From the IMG/VR virus record IMGVR_UViG_3300025108_000091, positions 1 through 47,530 of that record: 47,530 nucleotides of DNA, one strand, 5' to 3'. The position numbers were made by a program, and so were the translations under genes. Shown here one piece after another: positions 876 through 47,184 of this stretch. The stretch's first letter is position 1. The number at the start of each line of letters is the position of its first letter. A model generated the notes under the pieces. That model ran no database searches and was not told where the DNA came from. It saw nothing but the letters and a program-made list of their open reading frames with translations. The DNA comes from a virus.

Positions 876-1108
876 ACTACCTCGTAGCTGTGGCCGCGTT
901 CCTCGGGACCGCCGGGGGGTGCTTTACGCGTTCGTTGTCCCGAAGCGCGGGACAATGTGGCGGGACGCCCATACTCTCAAGGCTCGGAGACCGGGTTGCG
1001 CTTCCCCTTCGCGACTTGCCGCCTACTCAAGGACCTCAAAGACGCCGCGGAGATGCTGGCCGCGATCGCCTGAACGTTCACCGAGCACCTCGGGACGTTC
1101 ACCGATAG
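872..1108 (+). CDS. small hypothetical protein, probably frameshifted
   Basis: Starts at ATG 872 in an ATGA overlap with the previous stop and has GGAG upstream. The first 16 residues (MNYLVAVAAFLGTAGG) look like a membrane-inserting N-terminus. After a run of six G at about 914-919 the frame becomes non-coding in character (Arg/Pro-rich) until the TAG at 1106-1108. In the +1 frame the same region reads as a plausible tail, ending LLKDLKDAAEMLAAIA at TGA 1071-1073. One G fewer would join the two halves into a protein of about 66 residues. I favour an indel, a sequencing error or a programmed shift over the 78-residue reading. Confidence 0.4.
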   Translation: MNYLVAVAAFLGTAGGCFTRSLSRSAGQCGGTPILSRLGDRVALPLRDLPPTQGPQRRRGDAGRDRLNVHRAPRDVHR

Positions 1109-1252
1109 CCCAGGTTAGGCCTGGACTATCCTCGAATACTACCCATGATCCTCTCCTACTAAACCTCTATAGGGAAATAAGTACAAGAAAGAGGGGAACC
1201 CAGTAGGTAGTGTAAATACAACAAGGGAAGTTTCCCACGTGCCGTTCGTTCA
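1071..1252 (+). repeat. TGAAC/GTTCA sites, right-hand cluster
   Basis: TGAACGTTCA at 1071-1080 (the two half-sites abut), GTTCA at 1097 and GTTCA at 1248. These belong to the same family as the 13 half-sites at 46654-47282, on the other side of the window junction. Confidence 0.6.
1161..1200 (+). repeat. AT-rich leader element, copy A
   Basis: This 40-base AT-rich block matches, in inverted orientation, the block at 46768-46808. The identical parts are AAACCT, TATAGGGAA and AAGAAAGAGGGGAACC, separated by one substitution and a diverged segment of about 8 bases. It lies about 160 bp upstream of the first gene of the rightward arm and points toward it. Such AT-richness is out of character for this genome. 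Confidence 0.85.
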
Positions 1253-1640: not shown

Positions 1641-4276
1641 TCTCTGTCTTCCCGTCCATGTTCTCCCCGGCGTGGCCCCGCTTCGAGGGCGACGATGCGG
1701 AGGGCCTGGACGTGTGCCGGGCCGTGGGCCTGGACGAGTTCCAAGCCCCGCAGGACACGGACGCGATGTGCGTGGCCTACGCCATCGACGGCGAGCCGAT
1801 GTTCCCTCGCCTCAAGGCTTGCGCCCCTCGCTACGTGGACGGCATCCACCTGACCCACGTCTTCTTGGACTGGGACCGCCCGAACCACGAAGCGTGGCCG
1901 GGCATCGCGACAGCTCGGAGCGAACTGTCCGCTACGCTACGCGACCTGGGCGACCCGGCGTTCGGAGGATACACGAGTCGCGCAGGCTTCCGCCTGTTCG
2001 CCAAGCTCGACGAGCCTGTGCCGGTCGATCAGGCGAACAAGTTCCTTGAGGTCGTGCGGCGTCGTGTGGAGCGGGCCACAGGCCTTGCCTTCGACCCGGC
2101 GTCCGACGAGTGGACGCGCCTCTTCCGCCTCCCCCGCGCTCGGAGGGACGGCGAGGTCCTCGACTCCTTCGTCGTGGATCCGCTCAGTACCTTTTCCGTG
2201 CGGCAGGTCGCTCATGACCTTGAGGCGTGGACGCCGGGGCGGCACCCCGAGCTGCAGAACGCCGGCGACGCGCCCGACGACGACATCGTCCTGACCCCCG
2301 CGCACCGTGCCGCCTGCCGCAACCACGTCGGCGTCCCCGACGGCCCGCTCCCGGCGTCCCGAGGCAAGAGCTACCGCGACGCTGTGCGCTCGGCTATGGG
2401 CTCCATCGCTGCGCTGGGCTCGATCTCCGACCCGCGCGTCCTGTTCACCATCTTCCGCAAGAGCGCCGAGGATCCTCCCGTAGCCACGGGCCTGGACCTC
2501 GCTGACCTGTGGAAGCTCGCCGCCTGGGTAGCTACTCGGCAGGCGCAGACAACTCCCGAGGTCCCGGTGGCACCGACCCCTACCTCCTCTCCGGCTGCTG
2601 CCGAGACCTCGGGACCCCGGCTCCCGCCGCTGGCCCCCGCCGCCCTGCCGGCGGCTACGTGGGACACCATCGAGCGCGGCATCGACGGGCGCCTCCGGTC
2701 CCGAGTCCTCGCTCTCCGCAGCGGGGCCTCGATCCCCGGCACCAAGAGCACCAAGCTCACGAACATGCTGACCATGCCGCTGCGGATGACGCGAGTCATC
2801 GAGGGCCTGACCGCCGAGCAGCTGTACTCGGCCCTGTTCCACAGCGCTCGGGCGGACCTGCTCGACACCAACGCCATCTGGGACGCCTGCCTCCGCGCCG
2901 AGTCCGAGGCCAGCGCCAAGGTCGAGGCCGAGCTGGCGCTGCAGCAGTTCACCGACGAGCACGGCCCGCTGTTCCTCTCGAACTCTCGGGACGGGATGTA
3001 CGTCTTCAAGCCCGACACCCGCAGCTACGTGCCGGTCGGCCACAACTCCCTACGGCGCGTCGTCGAGCGCGACCTGAACCCCCACCTCCCGGCTGACGTG
3101 GACCCGCTTCGAGACTTCGCCGACCTCGTCGCTGAGTACGGCGAGCACTTCGACGACGAGGAGCGCTGGGCCAGCCTCGACCACGACGAGTGGGTCCTCG
3201 GAGACCACGGCCGCGGAGTCCTCCGCACCGCAGCGTACACCCGCTCCGCGTTCGAGACCATCGAGCACGGGTGGGTCGACGAGTGGCTCCAGCTCCTCGG
3301 CTGCTCCAACCCCGGCAAGCTCCTCGACTGGCTGTCGCAGGCGCCGCGGCTCGACATGCCGCTGGCTGCGCTTTACATCAAGGGCGGACCGGGCATCGGC
3401 AAGTCGCTCCTCGGCCGCGCGCTCGGGGAACTCTGGTCCGCCCCGGCGGTACCGTACGACGCGGTCGGGTCCTCGTTCAACGGAGGCCTCGCGAAGTGCC
3501 CCGTGGTCGTGGCCGACGAGGGCATCACCGACGGCTCGGACCGAGCCAGCGAGACCTTCCGCTCGCTCGTGTCGAACAAGCGGCACGAGCTGCGCCGCAA
3601 GTACCAGGCCAGCAGCACGCTGTACGGCGCCCTTCGTGTGGTCATCTTCTCGAACGACGACAACGGCATCCCCTTCGCCAAGCCCCTCGGAGCCGAGGGG
3701 CTCGAAGCGGTGACCGAGCGCATCCTCTACCTCGCGGCCAGCCACGAGACCCGAGCCCGGCTCGCCGCCCGCTTCGCGGAAGGGGGCACGGACACGGAGG
3801 TGTGCCGCGAGATCTGCGAGCACCTGACCTGGATGGCAGAGACGCGCACCGTGGTACCCGGCTCCCGGTTCCTCGTCAGCGGCGAGCCGACGCCGTGGCA
3901 CGACCAGTTCGCTGTGAACCAGGGCATCAAGCCCGACGTGCTCCAGGCCTGCTGGTGGCTGCTCCGCCACAGGAACGCGAACGTCGGCTCGCCTCGGGCC
4001 TGGTTCAAGGGCGACATGCTCTACGTCCGCACGGACGCCATCACGGCGGCCTGGAGCGACGCGGTCGGGCCGGGCAAGCCCCCGCGCCCCAAGATGATCC
4101 GAGACGCGCTCGGGCAGCTGGGTACCAACAAGCTCGCGACGCCGCCGCGCGGCACACGCTGCCGCGCCTACGAGGTGCCTGCCCAGGCCCTCGTCGACGC
4201 CGGCGTTTGCGAGAAGGAAGACATCGAACAAGTCCGAAAGGGCGACCACCTGTCGGTGGTCAAGGAGAAAGCATGA
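1637..4276 (+). CDS. PrimPol-helicase fusion (AEP primase plus SF3-type/D5-like helicase)
   Basis: An 879-residue replication initiator. The N-terminal part (about 40-190) has the archaeo-eukaryotic primase layout: an FLDWD metal-binding strand at 76-80, the TSRAGFR nucleotide-binding loop at 113-119 and WTRLFRLPR at 159-167. A Pro/Ala/Thr linker (about 300-340) leads to a helicase domain with Walker A GGPGIGKS (583-590), Walker B VVVADEG (about 623-629) and an SF3-like motif C strand ending in SND (672-674). This domain order is typical of phage and plasmid PrimPol-D5/DUF5906 proteins, which prime and unwind at the origin. It starts at GTG 1637 overlapping the previous stop. With the polymerase at 9206 it makes a largely self-sufficient replisome. 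Confidence 0.9.
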   Translation: MISVFPSMFSPAWPRFEGDDAEGLDVCRAVGLDEFQAPQDTDAMCVAYAIDGEPMFPRLKACAPRYVDGIHLTHVFLDWDRPNHEAWPGIATARSELSATLRDLGDPAFGGYTSRAGFRLFAKLDEPVPVDQANKFLEVVRRRVERATGLAFDPASDEWTRLFRLPRARRDGEVLDSFVVDPLSTFSVRQVAHDLEAWTPGRHPELQNAGDAPDDDIVLTPAHRAACRNHVGVPDGPLPASRGKSYRDAVRSAMGSIAALGSISDPRVLFTIFRKSAEDPPVATGLDLADLWKLAAWVATRQAQTTPEVPVAPTPTSSPAAAETSGPRLPPLAPAALPAATWDTIERGIDGRLRSRVLALRSGASIPGTKSTKLTNMLTMPLRMTRVIEGLTAEQLYSALFHSARADLLDTNAIWDACLRAESEASAKVEAELALQQFTDEHGPLFLSNSRDGMYVFKPDTRSYVPVGHNSLRRVVERDLNPHLPADVDPLRDFADLVAEYGEHFDDEERWASLDHDEWVLGDHGRGVLRTAAYTRSAFETIEHGWVDEWLQLLGCSNPGKLLDWLSQAPRLDMPLAALYIKGGPGIGKSLLGRALGELWSAPAVPYDAVGSSFNGGLAKCPVVVADEGITDGSDRASETFRSLVSNKRHELRRKYQASSTLYGALRVVIFSNDDNGIPFAKPLGAEGLEAVTERILYLAASHETRARLAARFAEGGTDTEVCREICEHLTWMAETRTVVPGSRFLVSGEPTPWHDQFAVNQGIKPDVLQACWWLLRHRNANVGSPRAWFKGDMLYVRTDAITAAWSDAVGPGKPPRPKMIRDALGQLGTNKLATPPRGTRCRAYEVPAQALVDAGVCEKEDIEQVRKGDHLSVVKEKA

Positions 4277-9076: not shown

Positions 9077-9149
9077 GTGCCCTCGGCTCAGTAGGTAGGG
9101 CGTCGGATTCTTAATCCGGTGGCCCTTGGTTCAAGTCCAAGAGGGCGCA
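9077..9149 (+). tRNA. tRNA-Lys(CTT)
   Basis: A complete cloverleaf. Acceptor GTGCCCT pairs with AGGGCGC (one T-G pair), D stem GCTC with GGGC, anticodon stem TCGGA with TCCGG around loop TTCTTAA (anticodon CTT), and T stem CTTGG with CCAAG around TTCAAGT. The discriminator is A9149, followed by CCT, so the terminal CCA is not fully encoded and must be completed by host enzyme. It decodes AAG, the lysine codon favoured in this GC-rich genome. Confidence 0.95.
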
Positions 9150-9151
9150 CC

Positions 9152-20735: not shown

Positions 20736-20764
20736 AACGTATCACGGCGCCCTTTACTTGTCAA
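20736..20764 (-). promoter_or_regulatory. late promoter with variant palindrome
   Basis: On the minus strand: TTGACA (20764-20759), a 17-bp spacer and TACGTT (20741-20736). The surrounding CTTGACAAGTAAAG deviates at two positions from the CTTGACACGTCAAG box used at the other late promoters. Confidence 0.65.
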
Positions 20765-23700
20765 GACCTTCCGTGAACTTCTCGACGCGATCCCGCTGGT
20801 CCTCCCGCGTGATGTCCTTGCGCCTGTACCGCGACTTCCGGTCACGGACCCGCGGGTCGATCACGAACTTCTGGCGGTCGAGCACCGACTTCTTGGGGTC
20901 GTGCTTGGTCATCAGGCCGATGCCGAGCCACTGGCGCAGCAGGTAGGTCATGACCTCAGCGGCCTCGCCTTCCTGGTACGTGAGCGCCGACTCCAGCGCC
21001 GGGTCCGCCCAGTACGAAATCTCCGAGGCGACGGGAGCCATGTCCCACATCGTGCGCATGCCGCGATCCACCCGCACGCCCTCCTTGTTCTCGCCGTAGG
21101 CATCCTCCTCGATGAACGCCCCGAGCACTGCCTGCCGCGTGAGGGACGTGTCCCGCTGCGACGGCGACGCGAAGCGCGTCTTGGGGTAGAGCAGGTCGAA
21201 CATGGCGTCGCCCACGGGGCCGAGGAGCATGTCCCCGACAGCGCGGGCCCCGTCCTCAGCGGCGATCTTCGCGGTCTCGGGAGCTTCGACGCCGGGGGTG
21301 GCGCCCGCGGCGATGAGTCCGCCCGCGGCGATGAGTCCGCCGATGATGCGGATGCCCGTCGCGGTCATGTCCATCGGCGTGAAGCCGGGCAGGCTGTACG
21401 CGACGTGGGTCGCCTCGACGCCGTACATCGCGAGGTGTTCGCGGTACATCTCGTCGGACGCCTTGTTGTTCGAGTAGAAGATCCGCGGTGAGTTGCTCGA
21501 CCACCAGGGGAAGACGTGGCGCAGGCCGTCGGTCTCGTCCTCGCCCTCGAACTCCTTGTCCCAGGCAGCCATCGCCTGAGTGGACATGGTCATGTCTCGC
21601 AGCCGGCGGGTCTTGGTGCCCAGGCCCAGCGCACCGAACTCGCCCTTGTAGCTCTTCACGGCGCCATCAAGCACCACGCCCGCAGCCTGCTTGAGGGCGA
21701 GCTTGTAGAAACGCCAGTACATCGCCACCGAGGACAGGACGCGGCTCTCGGCCTCGACAGCGTGCCCCCAGTCGTAGAGCGAGTTGCGCACCAGAGCGCC
21801 AGCCTCCTTGGTGCTCCGCCCTTCACCGATGACCGAATGCAGGAACAGGGCGACGCGCTGCCGCTGCTCGGCGAAGTCCGCCAGCTCGGCCCACTTCGCG
21901 CCGTGCCGCTCGGCAGCCTGGACGAAGCGGCCCTGCCGCACGGCGCCCATCACGGTACCGCCGTCGATGCCTCGCCCGGCCTCGTTCAGGATGGCCGTGC
22001 TTCCGTAGGACGTGAACACGCCCTCACTGAGCGCAGCCTCGCGCAGCTGAGCCGCCGTGTAGATGCGCCCGTTCTTGTCGGCGATCTTCTTACCAGCAGG
22101 CATGAGCTTCGGGTCGTAGAACGCGCCCACGTACGGGTTGAAGAGAGCGTTCATCAGCGAGTGCTGGGGGGATCCGGCCTTGCCCGAGGCTACGTGAGCC
22201 TCGAACAGCTTGGCGTAGGCCTTGTCGATCTTGGGCCCGACCACAGGCAAGCCCTGGAGGCTATGGAACGCCATCCCCGTTGCGACGTGGGACGTGTTCT
22301 GTAGCGCCGTGACGATGCCGGCTTCGGCCCAGACCTGGGCGAAGTTGCCGAAGAGCATGTTGGCGAAGTAGCGCGGACGCGCGAACAGGACGCCGGTGGT
22401 GAGGTTCGTCTTCCACAGCTGTAGGAGGCTCAAGGCGACGTCGGCGCCCTTACGCGCCTCGGTCCCGATGTCCCCGGCGCGGTACGCCTGCAGCTCCTTG
22501 ATGACCGGACCCATGCGGCCCGTCATCTCGTCCATCCAGCGTCGCGGGATGAACGTGCCGTCCTTTAGCGCGTGAACGCCGTACATCAGCTCCTTGCCGG
22601 TAGCCGTCGTGGTCTTCTGCAGCGTGATCGGGAGCCCGAGGTACCCGAAGACCCGCATCGCGGAAGCGATCTCCTCCTTACCTGAGAGCGTGCCGGCCAT
22701 GATGCGGTCCATCGAGAGGACCACCTCGGGCGGCGCGTCCGCGAGCTTCGAGACCTGGCGCGAAGCGCGCCGCATGATGGCCGCGGTACCGAGCACCTGG
22801 CTCGCCTTGCTCAGGGCGTCGAGGCCGTGGGTCCCGGCCTGCAGCCCAGCTGGCGTCAGCGTGCCCATGTTGCCCGAGAGGTTGAGCACGGTCAACTCCG
22901 CGAGCTTCTCCATGAACTCGGGGAACGTCTGCGTCGCGGCGCTCAGCTCGGCCGCTTCCCGAGCCTTCGAGGTCTTCGGAGCCTTCGCCGTGCCGAAACG
23001 GAGCAGGTTGTAGACCCCCTCCTCCATCTGCTTGGCGATCTTGTTGCTGTACTTCGCCGTGCCGGGCACAGCTCCGCCGGGGATGTATACGCGAGACAGC
23101 CCCTGAATCAGCTCGTTCTCTCGCAGCGCCTTGCTCTGCGAGAACTGGCGCAGCATGGAGCGTCCCGAGGCCCACAGGGACTCGCCCGACGCCATGTTGA
23201 CGAAGCTCTGGCCGCCCCAGCTCAGGTTGCCGGAGTACGTTGCGTCGCCCACGTACTTGTGGAGGACCTCGACCCGATCCTCGATCGTCTTGGCCCTGCG
23301 CAGCGCCTGACCCAGCTCAGCCTGGAACAGGCGCATCTGGTCCAGCGCGCCCTTCCCGACCTGCTGGAACTCGCCCGAGCCGACGCCGACCGTCGACAGG
23401 TGAGGAGGCTCCAGCATCTTGCGCATGCGGGCGAAGGTCCGCGTGAACATGCCCTCTCCCGCCTTGGGGAGCTTGAGCAGGTCGTCGCCCTTGACTGCGC
23501 CCTGAGCCATCAGGGCGGCGCCCTTGACCTTGCGGCCGGACTTGAGCGCGGCGCCCAGGTCCTTGTAGGCGAAGCCCATCTCGCGGAGGGCCTGGGTCGT
23601 GTACGCCTTGATCATCGGCCCGCGCGCGGCGCCGCCGACCTTCTTGCCCAGAGCCTTGACTGCCGCGGCGTGGTCCTTCTTTACGCCGGCGACGGAGCCT

Positions 23701-25547
23701 CCAGCGAGGACCTTGTCCTTGGCCTGGGCCAGGAGCATGGCGTGTAGGCGCTTCTCGCTCTTCGACGCCGCCGTCTGCGCAGCGAGGACCGAGTCGTCGA
23801 GCTGCTTGAACGCAGCCGTGCCCGAAGCTCGCCGCAGCAGGACCATCTCGGCAGCGAGCGTGTTGTACGCCAGGTCCAGCGTCTTCTGCGCGGCCGTGGG
23901 ATCGGGGGCGCCGATGTAGGCCTCGCGAGCCTTGAGGACCTCTGCGAGGGCCGCGTCCACGGCCTTGCGCGCGGTAGCGACGTCGCCCGAGCCTCCGGCC
24001 ACGGTGCCGGGCATGCGCTTCAAGAAGCCGCGCATCGCCTTGGCGTCGTCCAGCGCCATCTTGTTCATCATGTCCAGTGCGCGCGCAGCCTCCAGCTCAC
24101 TGTCGGCGAGCTTCTGGACCGCGTTGATGTCCCGCTTGGCCGCCTTGGCCTGGCGCCAGCCGTACTTCTGCCCGGAAACCCCGGCGTTCGCCGCAGCCTT
24201 GGCGTCGATGCCGAGCTTGTCGAAGATCTTGGCGACGCCTTCGTGCGCCTTAGCGGCCACGAGGCGGGCCTGGATCGTGCCTCCCTCAGCCGCCGGCTTG
24301 GCGGTGCCCGTCAAGGCCTGGAGGTACGTGCCCACGATGGCCTGAGTCGTGGGGCTGATCGACTTGATGCGCTCCAGCGTAGCTGCGGTCATGTCCGTCT
24401 GTGCGGACGTCTTGTCGACCCGCGCGCTGAGCTGCAGCAGCTCGTCGCCCTTAGCGAGGGCGCTCACGTGCGCCGCGCTTCCGCCTTCGAGGACCGCCCC
24501 GGCGGCTTCCAGTCCCTTGGCCGCCTTAGTGCCCTTGCCCGCGGCCAGCACAGCCTTGGTGCCTGCCACGGTAGCCGAGCCCACGCGCGCGGCTTTGCCC
24601 AAGCCACCCAAACCCAGGGTCAGGGCGTCGGGCTCCAGCATCACGATGGTCATGATGGCCGGCATGGCTCGCAGCGTGTTGCTGGTCTCTTCCTCAGGCT
24701 CGCCGAAGAAGCCCCAGTCGTAGAGGTGCGAGGCCAGCCCCAGCGCGGTTCCGGGACCGCCGGCTGCGGCGCGCAGCGTCTCGCCCGTCTTGCCCTTGCC
24801 TGCCTGAGGCGCCGCCTCGAAGACGGACTCGCCGCCTCGAATCGCTTCGATCTGCTCGCGCGTGCCGAAGCCGTGCATGGCTCCGGTGGCGAGGTAGGTG
24901 CTCGGCGCGCCCTGGGCGAGCCAGTGGAGCCAGCCCAGGGTGCCCTCGCGGAAGGTGCTGTTGGCCTGCTCCGTAGGCTTGTACGCCTTGATGTTCGCCG
25001 GCTGGGCCCAGGCGCCCACCGCAGCGGCCACGGATTCAAGCCCGCCCAACGATGCCTGCTCGGCCAGCTCGTTGGTCGTGCCCTCGGGGTCGCTGTCGAT
25101 GAAGATCCAGTTCGTGCCGCCGGACAGCTGGACGCCCTGGTTGAACCAGGCGCGCTCCTCGTTGACGGCGTCCTGCCGCCACTGGCGCATCAGCTCCGGG
25201 GGCGGGGTACGCTGGTCGGGGTTCTCGGTCAGCCAGTCCCGGTGCTTCTCGGCGAGGTTGAGCTTCGCGAGATCCTGCACATCGGCGGCCACGTCGATGC
25301 CGACGCGCTGCCCGATGGGCTCGATGGCGAGGCGCGCCTTGCCTCCGCCCGAGGCCTTGCGCAGGCGCTCGGCGTACTCCGGGGGGAGGCCCAGGTCCTC
25401 GTATTCCGGCGCCTCGTAGGCGCCGGTCTTGGTAGGGGCCTCAGGCTCGGGGCGCTGGGGCTTGGCCTTCGGGACTTCCTTCTCGGCCTTCGAGGGAAGG
25501 CCCAGGCTGGCGCGCTGCTCGTCGGTCCAGACAACAGGCTTCGGCAT
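20754..25547 (-). CDS. very large internal virion / DNA-ejection protein
   Basis: A 1597-residue protein, start ATG 25547 with GGAGAG upstream, the largest gene of the window. The N-terminus is Pro/Lys/Glu-rich. The rest is Ala-rich and helical, with several hydrophobic stretches (about 300-350, 1440-1480) including a tandem GGLIAAG pair from an 18-bp duplication at 21304-21339. In short-tailed phages such giants are ejected to form a channel across the envelope (T7 gp15/gp16-like role). I see no transglycosylase motif. Its position after other Ala-rich virion genes fits an ejectosome component. Confidence 0.65.
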   Translation of the reverse strand: MPKPVVWTDEQRASLGLPSKAEKEVPKAKPQRPEPEAPTKTGAYEAPEYEDLGLPPEYAERLRKASGGGKARLAIEPIGQRVGIDVAADVQDLAKLNLAEKHRDWLTENPDQRTPPPELMRQWRQDAVNEERAWFNQGVQLSGGTNWIFIDSDPEGTTNELAEQASLGGLESVAAAVGAWAQPANIKAYKPTEQANSTFREGTLGWLHWLAQGAPSTYLATGAMHGFGTREQIEAIRGGESVFEAAPQAGKGKTGETLRAAAGGPGTALGLASHLYDWGFFGEPEEETSNTLRAMPAIMTIVMLEPDALTLGLGGLGKAARVGSATVAGTKAVLAAGKGTKAAKGLEAAGAVLEGGSAAHVSALAKGDELLQLSARVDKTSAQTDMTAATLERIKSISPTTQAIVGTYLQALTGTAKPAAEGGTIQARLVAAKAHEGVAKIFDKLGIDAKAAANAGVSGQKYGWRQAKAAKRDINAVQKLADSELEAARALDMMNKMALDDAKAMRGFLKRMPGTVAGGSGDVATARKAVDAALAEVLKAREAYIGAPDPTAAQKTLDLAYNTLAAEMVLLRRASGTAAFKQLDDSVLAAQTAASKSEKRLHAMLLAQAKDKVLAGGSVAGVKKDHAAAVKALGKKVGGAARGPMIKAYTTQALREMGFAYKDLGAALKSGRKVKGAALMAQGAVKGDDLLKLPKAGEGMFTRTFARMRKMLEPPHLSTVGVGSGEFQQVGKGALDQMRLFQAELGQALRRAKTIEDRVEVLHKYVGDATYSGNLSWGGQSFVNMASGESLWASGRSMLRQFSQSKALRENELIQGLSRVYIPGGAVPGTAKYSNKIAKQMEEGVYNLLRFGTAKAPKTSKAREAAELSAATQTFPEFMEKLAELTVLNLSGNMGTLTPAGLQAGTHGLDALSKASQVLGTAAIMRRASRQVSKLADAPPEVVLSMDRIMAGTLSGKEEIASAMRVFGYLGLPITLQKTTTATGKELMYGVHALKDGTFIPRRWMDEMTGRMGPVIKELQAYRAGDIGTEARKGADVALSLLQLWKTNLTTGVLFARPRYFANMLFGNFAQVWAEAGIVTALQNTSHVATGMAFHSLQGLPVVGPKIDKAYAKLFEAHVASGKAGSPQHSLMNALFNPYVGAFYDPKLMPAGKKIADKNGRIYTAAQLREAALSEGVFTSYGSTAILNEAGRGIDGGTVMGAVRQGRFVQAAERHGAKWAELADFAEQRQRVALFLHSVIGEGRSTKEAGALVRNSLYDWGHAVEAESRVLSSVAMYWRFYKLALKQAAGVVLDGAVKSYKGEFGALGLGTKTRRLRDMTMSTQAMAAWDKEFEGEDETDGLRHVFPWWSSNSPRIFYSNNKASDEMYREHLAMYGVEATHVAYSLPGFTPMDMTATGIRIIGGLIAAGGLIAAGATPGVEAPETAKIAAEDGARAVGDMLLGPVGDAMFDLLYPKTRFASPSQRDTSLTRQAVLGAFIEEDAYGENKEGVRVDRGMRTMWDMAPVASEISYWADPALESALTYQEGEAAEVMTYLLRQWLGIGLMTKHDPKKSVLDRQKFVIDPRVRDRKSRYRRKDITREDQRDRVEKFTEGLDK
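21304..21339 (-). repeat. 18-bp perfect tandem duplication in the large virion gene
   Basis: Two identical 18-base units encode a repeated GGLIAA segment. Confidence 0.9.
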
Positions 25548-29524: not shown

Positions 29525-29553
29525 CCTATAACCTGCCGGGCTTGACGTGTCAA
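29525..29553 (-). promoter_or_regulatory. late promoter with CTTGACACGTCAAG operator
   Basis: Minus strand: TTGACA (29553-29548), a 17-bp spacer and TATAGG (29530-29525). The -35 is part of the full 14-bp palindrome at 29541-29554. The predicted transcription start coincides with the ATG at 29519. Confidence 0.75.
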
Positions 29554-37818: not shown

Positions 37819-37847
37819 AAGGTAACACAGGCGAGTTGACGTGTCAA
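37819..37847 (-). promoter_or_regulatory. late promoter of the capsid genes, with operator
   Basis: Minus strand: TTGACA (37847-37842), a 17-bp spacer and TACCTT (37824-37819). The palindrome GTTGACGTGTCAAG at 37835-37848 (plus strand) contains the -35. Confidence 0.75.
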
Positions 37848-40389: not shown

Positions 40390-40418
40390 AGCTTAACCCG
40401 CTGGGGTTGACGTGTCAA
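40390..40418 (-). promoter_or_regulatory. late promoter of the amidase-like gene, with operator
   Basis: Minus strand: TTGACA (40418-40413), a 17-bp spacer and TAAGCT (40395-40390). The palindrome GTTGACGTGTCAAG occupies 40406-40419. Confidence 0.65.
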
Positions 40419-42741: not shown

Positions 42742-42770
42742 TCCTTAACCGGTGCGGGTTGACGTGTCAA
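42742..42770 (-). promoter_or_regulatory. late promoter of the portal gene, with operator
   Basis: Minus strand: TTGACA (42770-42765), a 17-bp spacer and TAAGGA (42747-42742), a poor -10 that overlaps the ribosome-binding site. The palindrome GTTGACGTGTCAAG lies at 42758-42771. The site may serve mainly as an operator. Confidence 0.5.
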
Positions 42771-45758: not shown

Positions 45759-45787
45759 ATAATACCACGACCGGCTTGACGTGTCAA
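45759..45787 (-). promoter_or_regulatory. main late promoter, with operator
   Basis: Minus strand: TTGACA (45787-45782), a 17-bp spacer and TATTAT (45764-45759), close to full consensus. The palindrome CTTGACGTGTCAAG covers 45775-45788. It drives the packaging and head genes. Confidence 0.8.
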
Positions 45788-45813: not shown

Positions 45814-46569
45814 TCAGCCGGTTTTCGCGGACCTTACGAGACTTCGGCGCGAAGATCGAGGGATCCACGGAAGGAAGGGAAGGTGCTTGAGGCGGTTCAG
45901 GTCCCAGGCCGGAGATAGCGCGCGGGCGTAATTAGGCTTCGAGATGGCGAGGGGGTTCTCTTCGAGGATCGTGCGCGCGGCGAGCCGGGCTTGGAACGAG
46001 GCGCCGCGGCCGAGGGGCACGTAGTCGAGCTGCGGGCGGCAGGCCCAGATGTAGAACCACGTGTGTCCCGCCAGCTCGGTCGCGGCGGCCGGCATGGCCT
46101 CGATCTCGCCGCGAGTGAGCGGGAAGCCGTGGGCGTAGGCCGCGAGCAGGGAGCTGGCACCCGCGCTTACGCGGTACGCGAGAGCGTCGCGGCGGTGCTT
46201 GCGCTGGGTGGGGAGGTAGTCGGCCGCGAACTGCGCCGGCGTGGGGGGCGCCACGTCCGCGGCGTGGAACGCGGCGAGGGTCTCGGCCGACCAGGCGGCG
46301 GGCGGGCGGAGGAAGTCCTCGGAGCGCGACCACGCGTCGAGGCGAGGGAAGCGCGCGAGGAAGGTCTCCCAGTACTGGACCCGCTGGGCGCCGTACGAGC
46401 CGGCGAGCTTCTTGCCTTCCACGGCGGCCACGAGGCCGAGCGCGGTTTTGGGGTGCCCAGGGTCGTGGAGGTCGGTAGCTCGGGCCGCGAGAGCGAGCGG
46501 ACCAGGCCCTCGGAGGCAGTTGAGGAGGTACGCGGTGAAGGGCTCGGCGTCCGTGGGTCGACTGGGCAT
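45814..46569 (-). CDS. hypothetical protein, possible moron
   Basis: A 251-residue basic protein, chosen start ATG 46569; an ATG at 46587 is in frame but lies inside the promoter spacer. It is rich in Ala, Arg and Leu, with Trp-containing helices (ELAGHTWFYIWACRPQLDYV) and a basic C-terminus (WIPRSSRRSLVRSAKTG). No family recognised. It has its own promoter, is separated from the terminase block by a fresh late promoter and is bracketed by 16-bp direct repeats. This looks like an independently acquired cassette. Confidence 0.6.
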   Translation of the reverse strand: MPSRPTDAEPFTAYLLNCLRGPGPLALAARATDLHDPGHPKTALGLVAAVEGKKLAGSYGAQRVQYWETFLARFPRLDAWSRSEDFLRPPAAWSAETLAAFHAADVAPPTPAQFAADYLPTQRKHRRDALAYRVSAGASSLLAAYAHGFPLTRGEIEAMPAAATELAGHTWFYIWACRPQLDYVPLGRGASFQARLAARTILEENPLAISKPNYARALSPAWDLNRLKHLPFLPWIPRSSRRSLVRSAKTG

Positions 46570-46575
46570 GCCCTC

Positions 46576-46604
46576 AGCATAGCACATCGCGCGGAGTTTA
46601 GCAA
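46576..46604 (-). promoter_or_regulatory. promoter of the outermost leftward gene
   Basis: Minus strand: TTGCTA (46604-46599), a 17-bp spacer and TATGCT (46581-46576). The ATG at 46569 begins 6 bases after the -10, so the message would be leaderless or nearly so. There is no CTTGACACGTCAAG box here. Confidence 0.6.
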
Positions 46605-46638: not shown

Positions 46639-46767
46639 TGGGTGGCCCGGAGGTGAACGCCACCGAACTGTTCAGCACTTCGGCCAGCTGCCAGCGGGAC
46701 CTGAGGCAAGGTCTACCCCTTTGGACGCCGGGGAGTAACCTTCTCTTTATGTATATACCCCTTTAAT

Positions 46768-46808
46768 GGTTCCCCTCTTTCTTCTATGTATATTCCCTAT
46801 ATAGGTTT
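46768..46808 (-). repeat. AT-rich leader element, copy B
   Basis: The inverted partner of 1161-1200, read on the minus strand toward the leftward arm, about 200 bp before its first gene. Next to it (46741-46767) a second, shorter TATATACATA-AAGAG block repeats part of the element. Confidence 0.85.
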
Positions 46809-47133
46809 TTAAGAGAGAGAGAAGAGGGAGAATAGAGGAAAGCGCAGGTTGAACCTGGCTTATGAGTGAACAGGAGAGACGTACTACTGAACGTTCAGGT
46901 CGCTAAGTGGCCGGAATCGCGACGCTTTTTCCGTCGACCTCGGCGTTCACCTGCCGTTCACAGCGCTCATCCGCGGCGGTCTTAGGGGGTTCGGGGGAGG
47001 TACCACCCCCAGGCCACCCAGCGACCACCCCTCCGAGGTACCTCGATTTCGTTTCTACCCCCGGCCCTCTTCGCCAGCTGGCGCCTTCACACTCGGCCTA
47101 TCTGTGCGAGCAGGGTACTGGCTAAAGCCAAAG

Positions 47134-47171: not shown

Positions 47172-47184
47172 TTGACACGTCAAG
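47171..47184 (+). promoter_or_regulatory. operator copy CTTGACACGTCAAG
   Basis: A perfect example of the 14-bp late-promoter palindrome, here in the intergenic region. The TTGACA faces right but no good -10 follows at 17 bp (GATTTC), so it may act only as a binding site. Confidence 0.65.

Follow-up and report, generated by a model that had tools for sequence, protein, structure and literature searches.

In the genome of an uncultured bacterial virus, a module of roughly 165 bp is present twice in inverted orientation, once ahead of the primase genes and once at the head of the late genes. We tentatively read the two copies as paired cis-acting, origin-like modules, each with putative initiator boxes and a predicted unwinding element, similar in plan to oriL and oriR of phage SPP1. 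Judged from their sequence, paired replication origins or switch sites are more likely than T7-like promoters. The virus is represented by IMG/VR record IMGVR_UViG_3300025108_000091, positions 1 to 47,530, and this whole 47.5-kb stretch (67% GC) is called the window here. Its replication block runs on the plus strand from 1362 and encodes a primase-like protein with DUF5906, a PD-(D/E)XK exonuclease, a helicase, a family A DNA polymerase, and an RNA ligase. The late block (terminase, portal, major head protein, and others) occupies the minus strand from the start of its first gene at 46569 down to 20754.

A first-pass annotation had described an inverted pair of AT-rich 40-bp elements, at 1161-1200 (+) and 46808-46768 (-), in front of both arms. 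Both copies are present at these positions, but the homology is really some 165 bp long: the left module (1070-1233, +) aligns with the right (46898-46737, -) with 118 of 167 columns identical (71%). When the right module is compared with 400-bp tiles of the window, two overlapping tiles containing the left copy score 62 and 55, and no other tile exceeds 15. Upstream of the core, the homology reaches significance by itself (score 25 against 8.2 +/- 1.6 for shuffled sequence, a value reached by 0 of 2000 shuffles); homology downstream of 1233 is hardly significant. Two blocks, exact over 15-16 bp, stand out within the module. The first, AAACCTnTATAGGGAA, occurs twice in the window, as AAACCTCTATAGGGAA at 1161-1176 (+) and AAACCTATATAGGGAA at 46808-46793 (-), with no further occurrence even at 3 mismatches; the chance expectation averages 0.12, and none of the shuffles contained two occurrences. 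The second, AAGAAAGAGGGGAACC, lies at 1185-1200 (+) and 46783-46768 (-). The blocks follow in the same order in both copies, as first described, though not at the same spacing, the gap between them being 8 nt on the left and 9 nt on the right. They are 88% and 94% identical in alignment columns (the departures being one mismatch at N and gap placement) against 62-67% for the rest of the module, which suggests that the two core words are specifically recognised.

Upstream of the core, both copies carry TGAACGTTCA, GTTCAC, and CCAGGTTnnnCCTG at near-equal spacing. The palindromic box TGAACGTTCA lies 90 bp upstream of AAACCT in the left copy (1071-1080, +) and 89 bp upstream in the right (46888-46897, -), the left one overlapping a TGA that is the probable end of the preceding gene. 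GTTCAC follows at 1097-1102 (+) and 46866-46871 (-); on the left it stands 21 bp after another GTTCAC at 1076, and a third copy is found at 1248, past the core. Further palindromic boxes, CCAGGTTAGGCCTGG at 1110-1124 (+) and CCAGGTTCAACCTG at 46845-46858 (-), complete the set. The small gene that precedes the left module (871-1073) has a good end (LLKDLKDAAEMLAAIA, stop at 1071-1073) only in a frame other than that of its ATG, with a possible frameshift around a G run at about 915.

The AT-richness noted in the first description is borne out over 100 bp: the left core (1134-1233, +) has 40% GC and the right (46736-46835, -) 35%, in a genome of 67%. Nearest-neighbour free energies place the two cores first and second in the window for predicted duplex instability over both 60 and 100 bp, the right core being the least stable 100 bp and the left the second least stable. 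Their values are -1.149 and -1.213, against a window mean of -1.612 (SD 0.077) and -1.326 for the next stretch. Over 60 and 100 bp, predicted core stability falls 5-7 SD under the mean, a ranking largely due to AT content. Prediction of an origin by GC skew was rejected, since skew is confounded by coding strand and its sign is opposite between the window and related phages.

The right copy does stand in front of its arm, and recurs in three IMG/VR contigs of the same phage (L002-L004; 99.96-100% identical). Samples behind IMG/VR 3300006923, 3300025066, and 3300008050 contain this phage. The left copy, known from one record, has a different setting. The whole record of L004 (L013, here G001) is a near-identical contig, with 100% identity over 5.3 kb, that extends some 11.8 kb beyond the right end of the window; this extension consists of about 3 kb of noncoding DNA followed by ORFs with Shine-Dalgarno-like starts that run in the early-arm direction. 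The left copy thus lies inside the early arm, before the primase genes, rather than in front of it; likewise, several kb of early genes precede the primase in two related phages, G002 and G005. The stretch from the end of G001 to base 1 of the window is covered by no contig found, and if the genome is circular or permuted, a distance of at least 13 kb separates the two copies across this junction.

Why we favour paired origins is best seen by comparison with characterised systems. SPP1 has two origins about 12-13 kb apart in its circular genome, oriL lying within a gene for replication and oriR within the late region, each made of direct repeats and an AT-rich unwinding element and bound by gp38 (PMC6316719, PMC3485210). 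In phage P4, the alpha protein is a helicase-primase that itself binds the origin repeats (PMC4234260). The phage described here resembles SPP1 in having two repeat-plus-AT-rich modules, the first beside the replication genes and the second in the late region, with a distance across the junction (at least 13 kb, if circular or permuted) to set beside the 12-13 kb of SPP1. Both sites have the same repeat organisation, with three boxes at matching spacing on the same side of the AT-rich core and with strong conservation of the two 16-bp blocks, against 62-67% identity in the remainder of the module; the AT-rich unwinding element beside the repeats is represented by the sequence-predicted instability of ranks 1 and 2. 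The likeness to P4 lies in the primase-like DUF5906 protein encoded just downstream of the left copy. It is this resemblance to SPP1, with the precedent of P4 alpha, that leads us to favour paired origin-like modules. The differences are also clear. The boxes are palindromic or partly so, unlike the run of direct repeats in SPP1, and they differ from those of P4, binding here being putative; no gp38, gp39, or gp40 homologue was identified, and this phage, known from sequence alone, encodes a family A DNA polymerase and a primase-helicase of its own.

In the mechanism that we envisage, a phage-encoded DNA-binding protein would bind the TGAAC/GTTCA and CCAGGTT boxes and melt the adjacent AT-rich core, which would let helicase and primase load. 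Candidates for the binder are the primase-helicase, whose gene follows closely on the left copy, and an early protein of unknown family. That a protein binds, that the strands open, that replication starts there, and which protein is the initiator are all points that we infer. Among the early proteins scanned, no Pfam or PHROG match to an initiator was obtained; the primase-like DUF5906 protein has no relative among solved structures by sequence, and the AlphaFold model of the primase-helicase (pLDDT 37) is unusable. The right copy is probably the ancestral site; relatives, too, have an AT-rich, repeat-flanked core at this position. The left copy, before the replication genes, would serve as another origin or as a further site for the initiator to bind, as with oriL and oriR in SPP1. 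Against paired origins, promoters and control sites can likewise be AT-rich and have operator-like boxes, and origins do not require each copy to be oriented toward its gene block.

The relatives are few and distant: G002 (56.8 kb), G005 (57.9 kb), and G004 (18 kb), with major capsid proteins 57-70% identical and genomes of 46-50% GC. All three have the late gene order in common, and the replication block is shared by G002 and G005. Each of the three has an AT-rich core, with flanking repeats of its own, ahead of the first late gene. This core is the least stable 60 and 100 bp of both G002 and G004; in G005 it is the third least stable 100 bp and falls outside the eight least stable 60-bp stretches. 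In G002 it sits between 42-bp inverted repeats, 90% complementary, that contain AAAACC(T/C)(A/T)TATGTAT, and in G004 and G005 TGTGACA repeats lie on both sides. The distance from core centre to first late codon is 217 bp in the window, 164 bp in G002, 268 bp in G005, and 237 bp in G004. The word AAAAACCTATAT is common to the G002 late-arm site and the right core of the window, a match reached by 2% of shuffles; the box sequences are conserved loosely in G002 and not in G004 or G005. The first-pass annotation had named lack of conservation of either copy in relatives as part of its refutation, and the outcome is divided: the right site recurs in position and architecture, but neither its exact sequence nor the left copy does. 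Near the primase, G002 and G005 have no clear second copy, and a candidate counterpart of the left copy at G002 4832 (3 mismatches to the core) was rejected, 3 such matches being observed against 1.9 expected. Three relatives have an identical 15-mer, GGAGGTGCTTTAAAC, in noncoding DNA ahead of the late arm (L012 13943-13929, -; L026 1010-1024, +; L023 19650-19664, +); it was not found in the window phage. Across IMG/VR, a degenerate core pattern returned only contigs of the same phage and one AT-rich chance match (L033). No DNA match to cultured phages was obtained, only distant terminase and polymerase relatives; a genome collection gave only polymerases 30% identical, on Myxococcaceae and Corallococcus contigs, and the element was absent from the stretch read.

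The earlier suggestion of an origin-unwinding element, or a binding site for an unknown factor, is thus the one among its alternatives that fits best, with boxes at conserved spacing by the least stable DNA and an AT-rich, repeat-flanked counterpart heading the late arm of three relatives. As sites bound by a factor, the copies could be upstream control sites: a phage or host regulator would bind the boxes at both and switch the replication and late blocks together through sigma-70-like promoters 110-170 bp downstream. We regard this main rival as possible, and favour paired origins over it. Each copy faces its own gene block at a similar distance (162 bp on the left and 199 bp on the right, between the end of the core words and the first codon), and each is followed by a sigma-70-like promoter. 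TGAACn(0-6)GTTCA boxes recur, moreover, in the noncoding region by the late arm (47210 and 47269; G001 10943 and 10959). Control sites nevertheless fail to account for the extreme instability of the cores, which no other DNA in the window matches, and for the exact conservation of a purine-rich block more than 110 bp upstream of the promoter; the boxes lie about 100 bp farther still.

The promoter sequences themselves are ordinary. On the left, TTGACA-17-TATACT (1314-1342, +) matches sigma-70 at 11 of 12 positions and lies downstream of the module, 19 nt before the gene at 1362. On the right, TTGCTA-17-TATGCT (46576-46604, -; 8 of 12) places its -10 hexamer 6 nt before the late ATG at 46569. 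In three of the four phages, exactly 6 nt separate the -10 hexamer from the ATG of the first late gene (TATGCT in the window, TATAGT in G005, TATAAT in G004), and a -35-like hexamer stands 17 bp upstream in each. This short distance implies that the late transcript is nearly leaderless (window 46576-46604; equivalent sites in L026 and L023); G002 has TTGACA-17-TACTCT, 21 nt from the ATG. A separate operator-like sequence recurs in the window. The perfect-arm 12-bp palindrome TTGACACGTCAA (TTGAC-NN-GTCAA) is present six times, against about 0.003 expected, at 29542-29553, 37836-37847, 40407-40418, 42759-42770, 45776-45787, and 47172-47183, and is absent from G002, G004, and G005. In five of the six, the TTGACA is followed 17 bp on by a hexamer starting with TA (TATTAT, TATAGG, TAAGCT, and others), and a late gene, such as that for the head protein or the portal, begins shortly after. 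The pattern suggests an operator with -35 boxes embedded in it.

The first-pass annotation had also seen in the element a likeness to promoters of single-subunit RNA polymerases, with 13 of 23 positions shared with the T7 class. This count is at background level: the best matches to the T7 consensus (16, 15, and 14 of 23) lie elsewhere in the window, and a scan with the T7, T3, SP6, and K11 consensus sequences gave background only. Its companion remark, that no such polymerase is encoded, was right for the five records searched (window, G001, G002, G004, and G005), in which PF00940 has no match while the T7 and N4 polymerases were detected, a gap in this phage's genome lying outside these records; RNA polymerase motif regexes gave no match either. 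Such a promoter should come with a cognate polymerase and with consensus similarity above background, and neither was found; together with the occurrence of two copies only, this leaves the reading unsupported, the likeness to T7-class promoters being confined to the string TATAGGGA. The idea survives, as an improbable one, in the form of promoters of an unusual class, read by a host polymerase that the phage has modified, the transcript starting at TATAGGGA or close to it. Both copies conserve TATAGGGAA together with an AAACCT block 6-11 bp before it, which agrees with this idea; the missing polymerase, the copy number, and the background similarity speak against it, as do the core, which has no sigma-70 match, and the ordinary promoter sequences downstream. 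Equally doubtful is a bipartite origin, in which one factor at two inverted modules would couple the start of replication with late transcription, and initiator and boxes would vary between related phages, with a constant location at the head of the late arm.

A shared leader, also proposed at first, fares worse. With the best sigma-70-like promoter sequences downstream of the element, transcription of both blocks could start downstream of it, which argues against a leader role. We consider it very unlikely that the element is a leader RNA, or an antitermination element of the nut or put kind, present on the transcripts of both operons, even though two copies stand in sense orientation ahead of two operons. 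The nut sites of lambda and the put sites of HK022 are likewise two copies in sense orientation ahead of two operons. Here, unlike in divergent lambda-like operator/nut pairs, the left copy lies inside the early arm and not at a divergent junction, and there is no conserved RNA structure: the element folds no more stably than shuffled sequence does (z 0.75 and -0.56), and Rfam has no match there. A lower folding energy over 1177-1310 (z -2.1) is due to hairpins past the core words. That the pair is a duplication fossil without function hardly deserves credence, since the module scores 62 against 15 for the best unrelated tile and the 16-bp blocks are nearly intact in a module diverged to 62-67% identity, even if the relatives found have no clear second copy.

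For paired origins or control sites alike, the modules offer a sequence-defined, testable pair of candidates in a phage group for which no close cultured relative was found; their function is in every respect something that we infer. Across related phages the head of the late arm appears as a rapidly changing, repeat-flanked AT-rich core, a place where replication and late transcription could be coupled.

Some further features of the genome were recorded. A very large late protein, without a family match save a weak SprT-like one in G005, has 1597 aa in the window (20754-25547), 2141 aa in L011 (3119-9544), and 2467 aa in L025 (1390-8793). An ORF at 170-421 consists of tandem ggctacggcgacggcaacggc-like units and encodes a glycine-rich repeat. 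A tRNA-Pro (tgg) at 2714-2786 (-), called by ARAGORN alone and within the primase-like gene, is doubtful; a tRNA-Lys (ctt) at 9077-9151 (+) was called by both ARAGORN and Rfam, for which this tRNA is the sole match.
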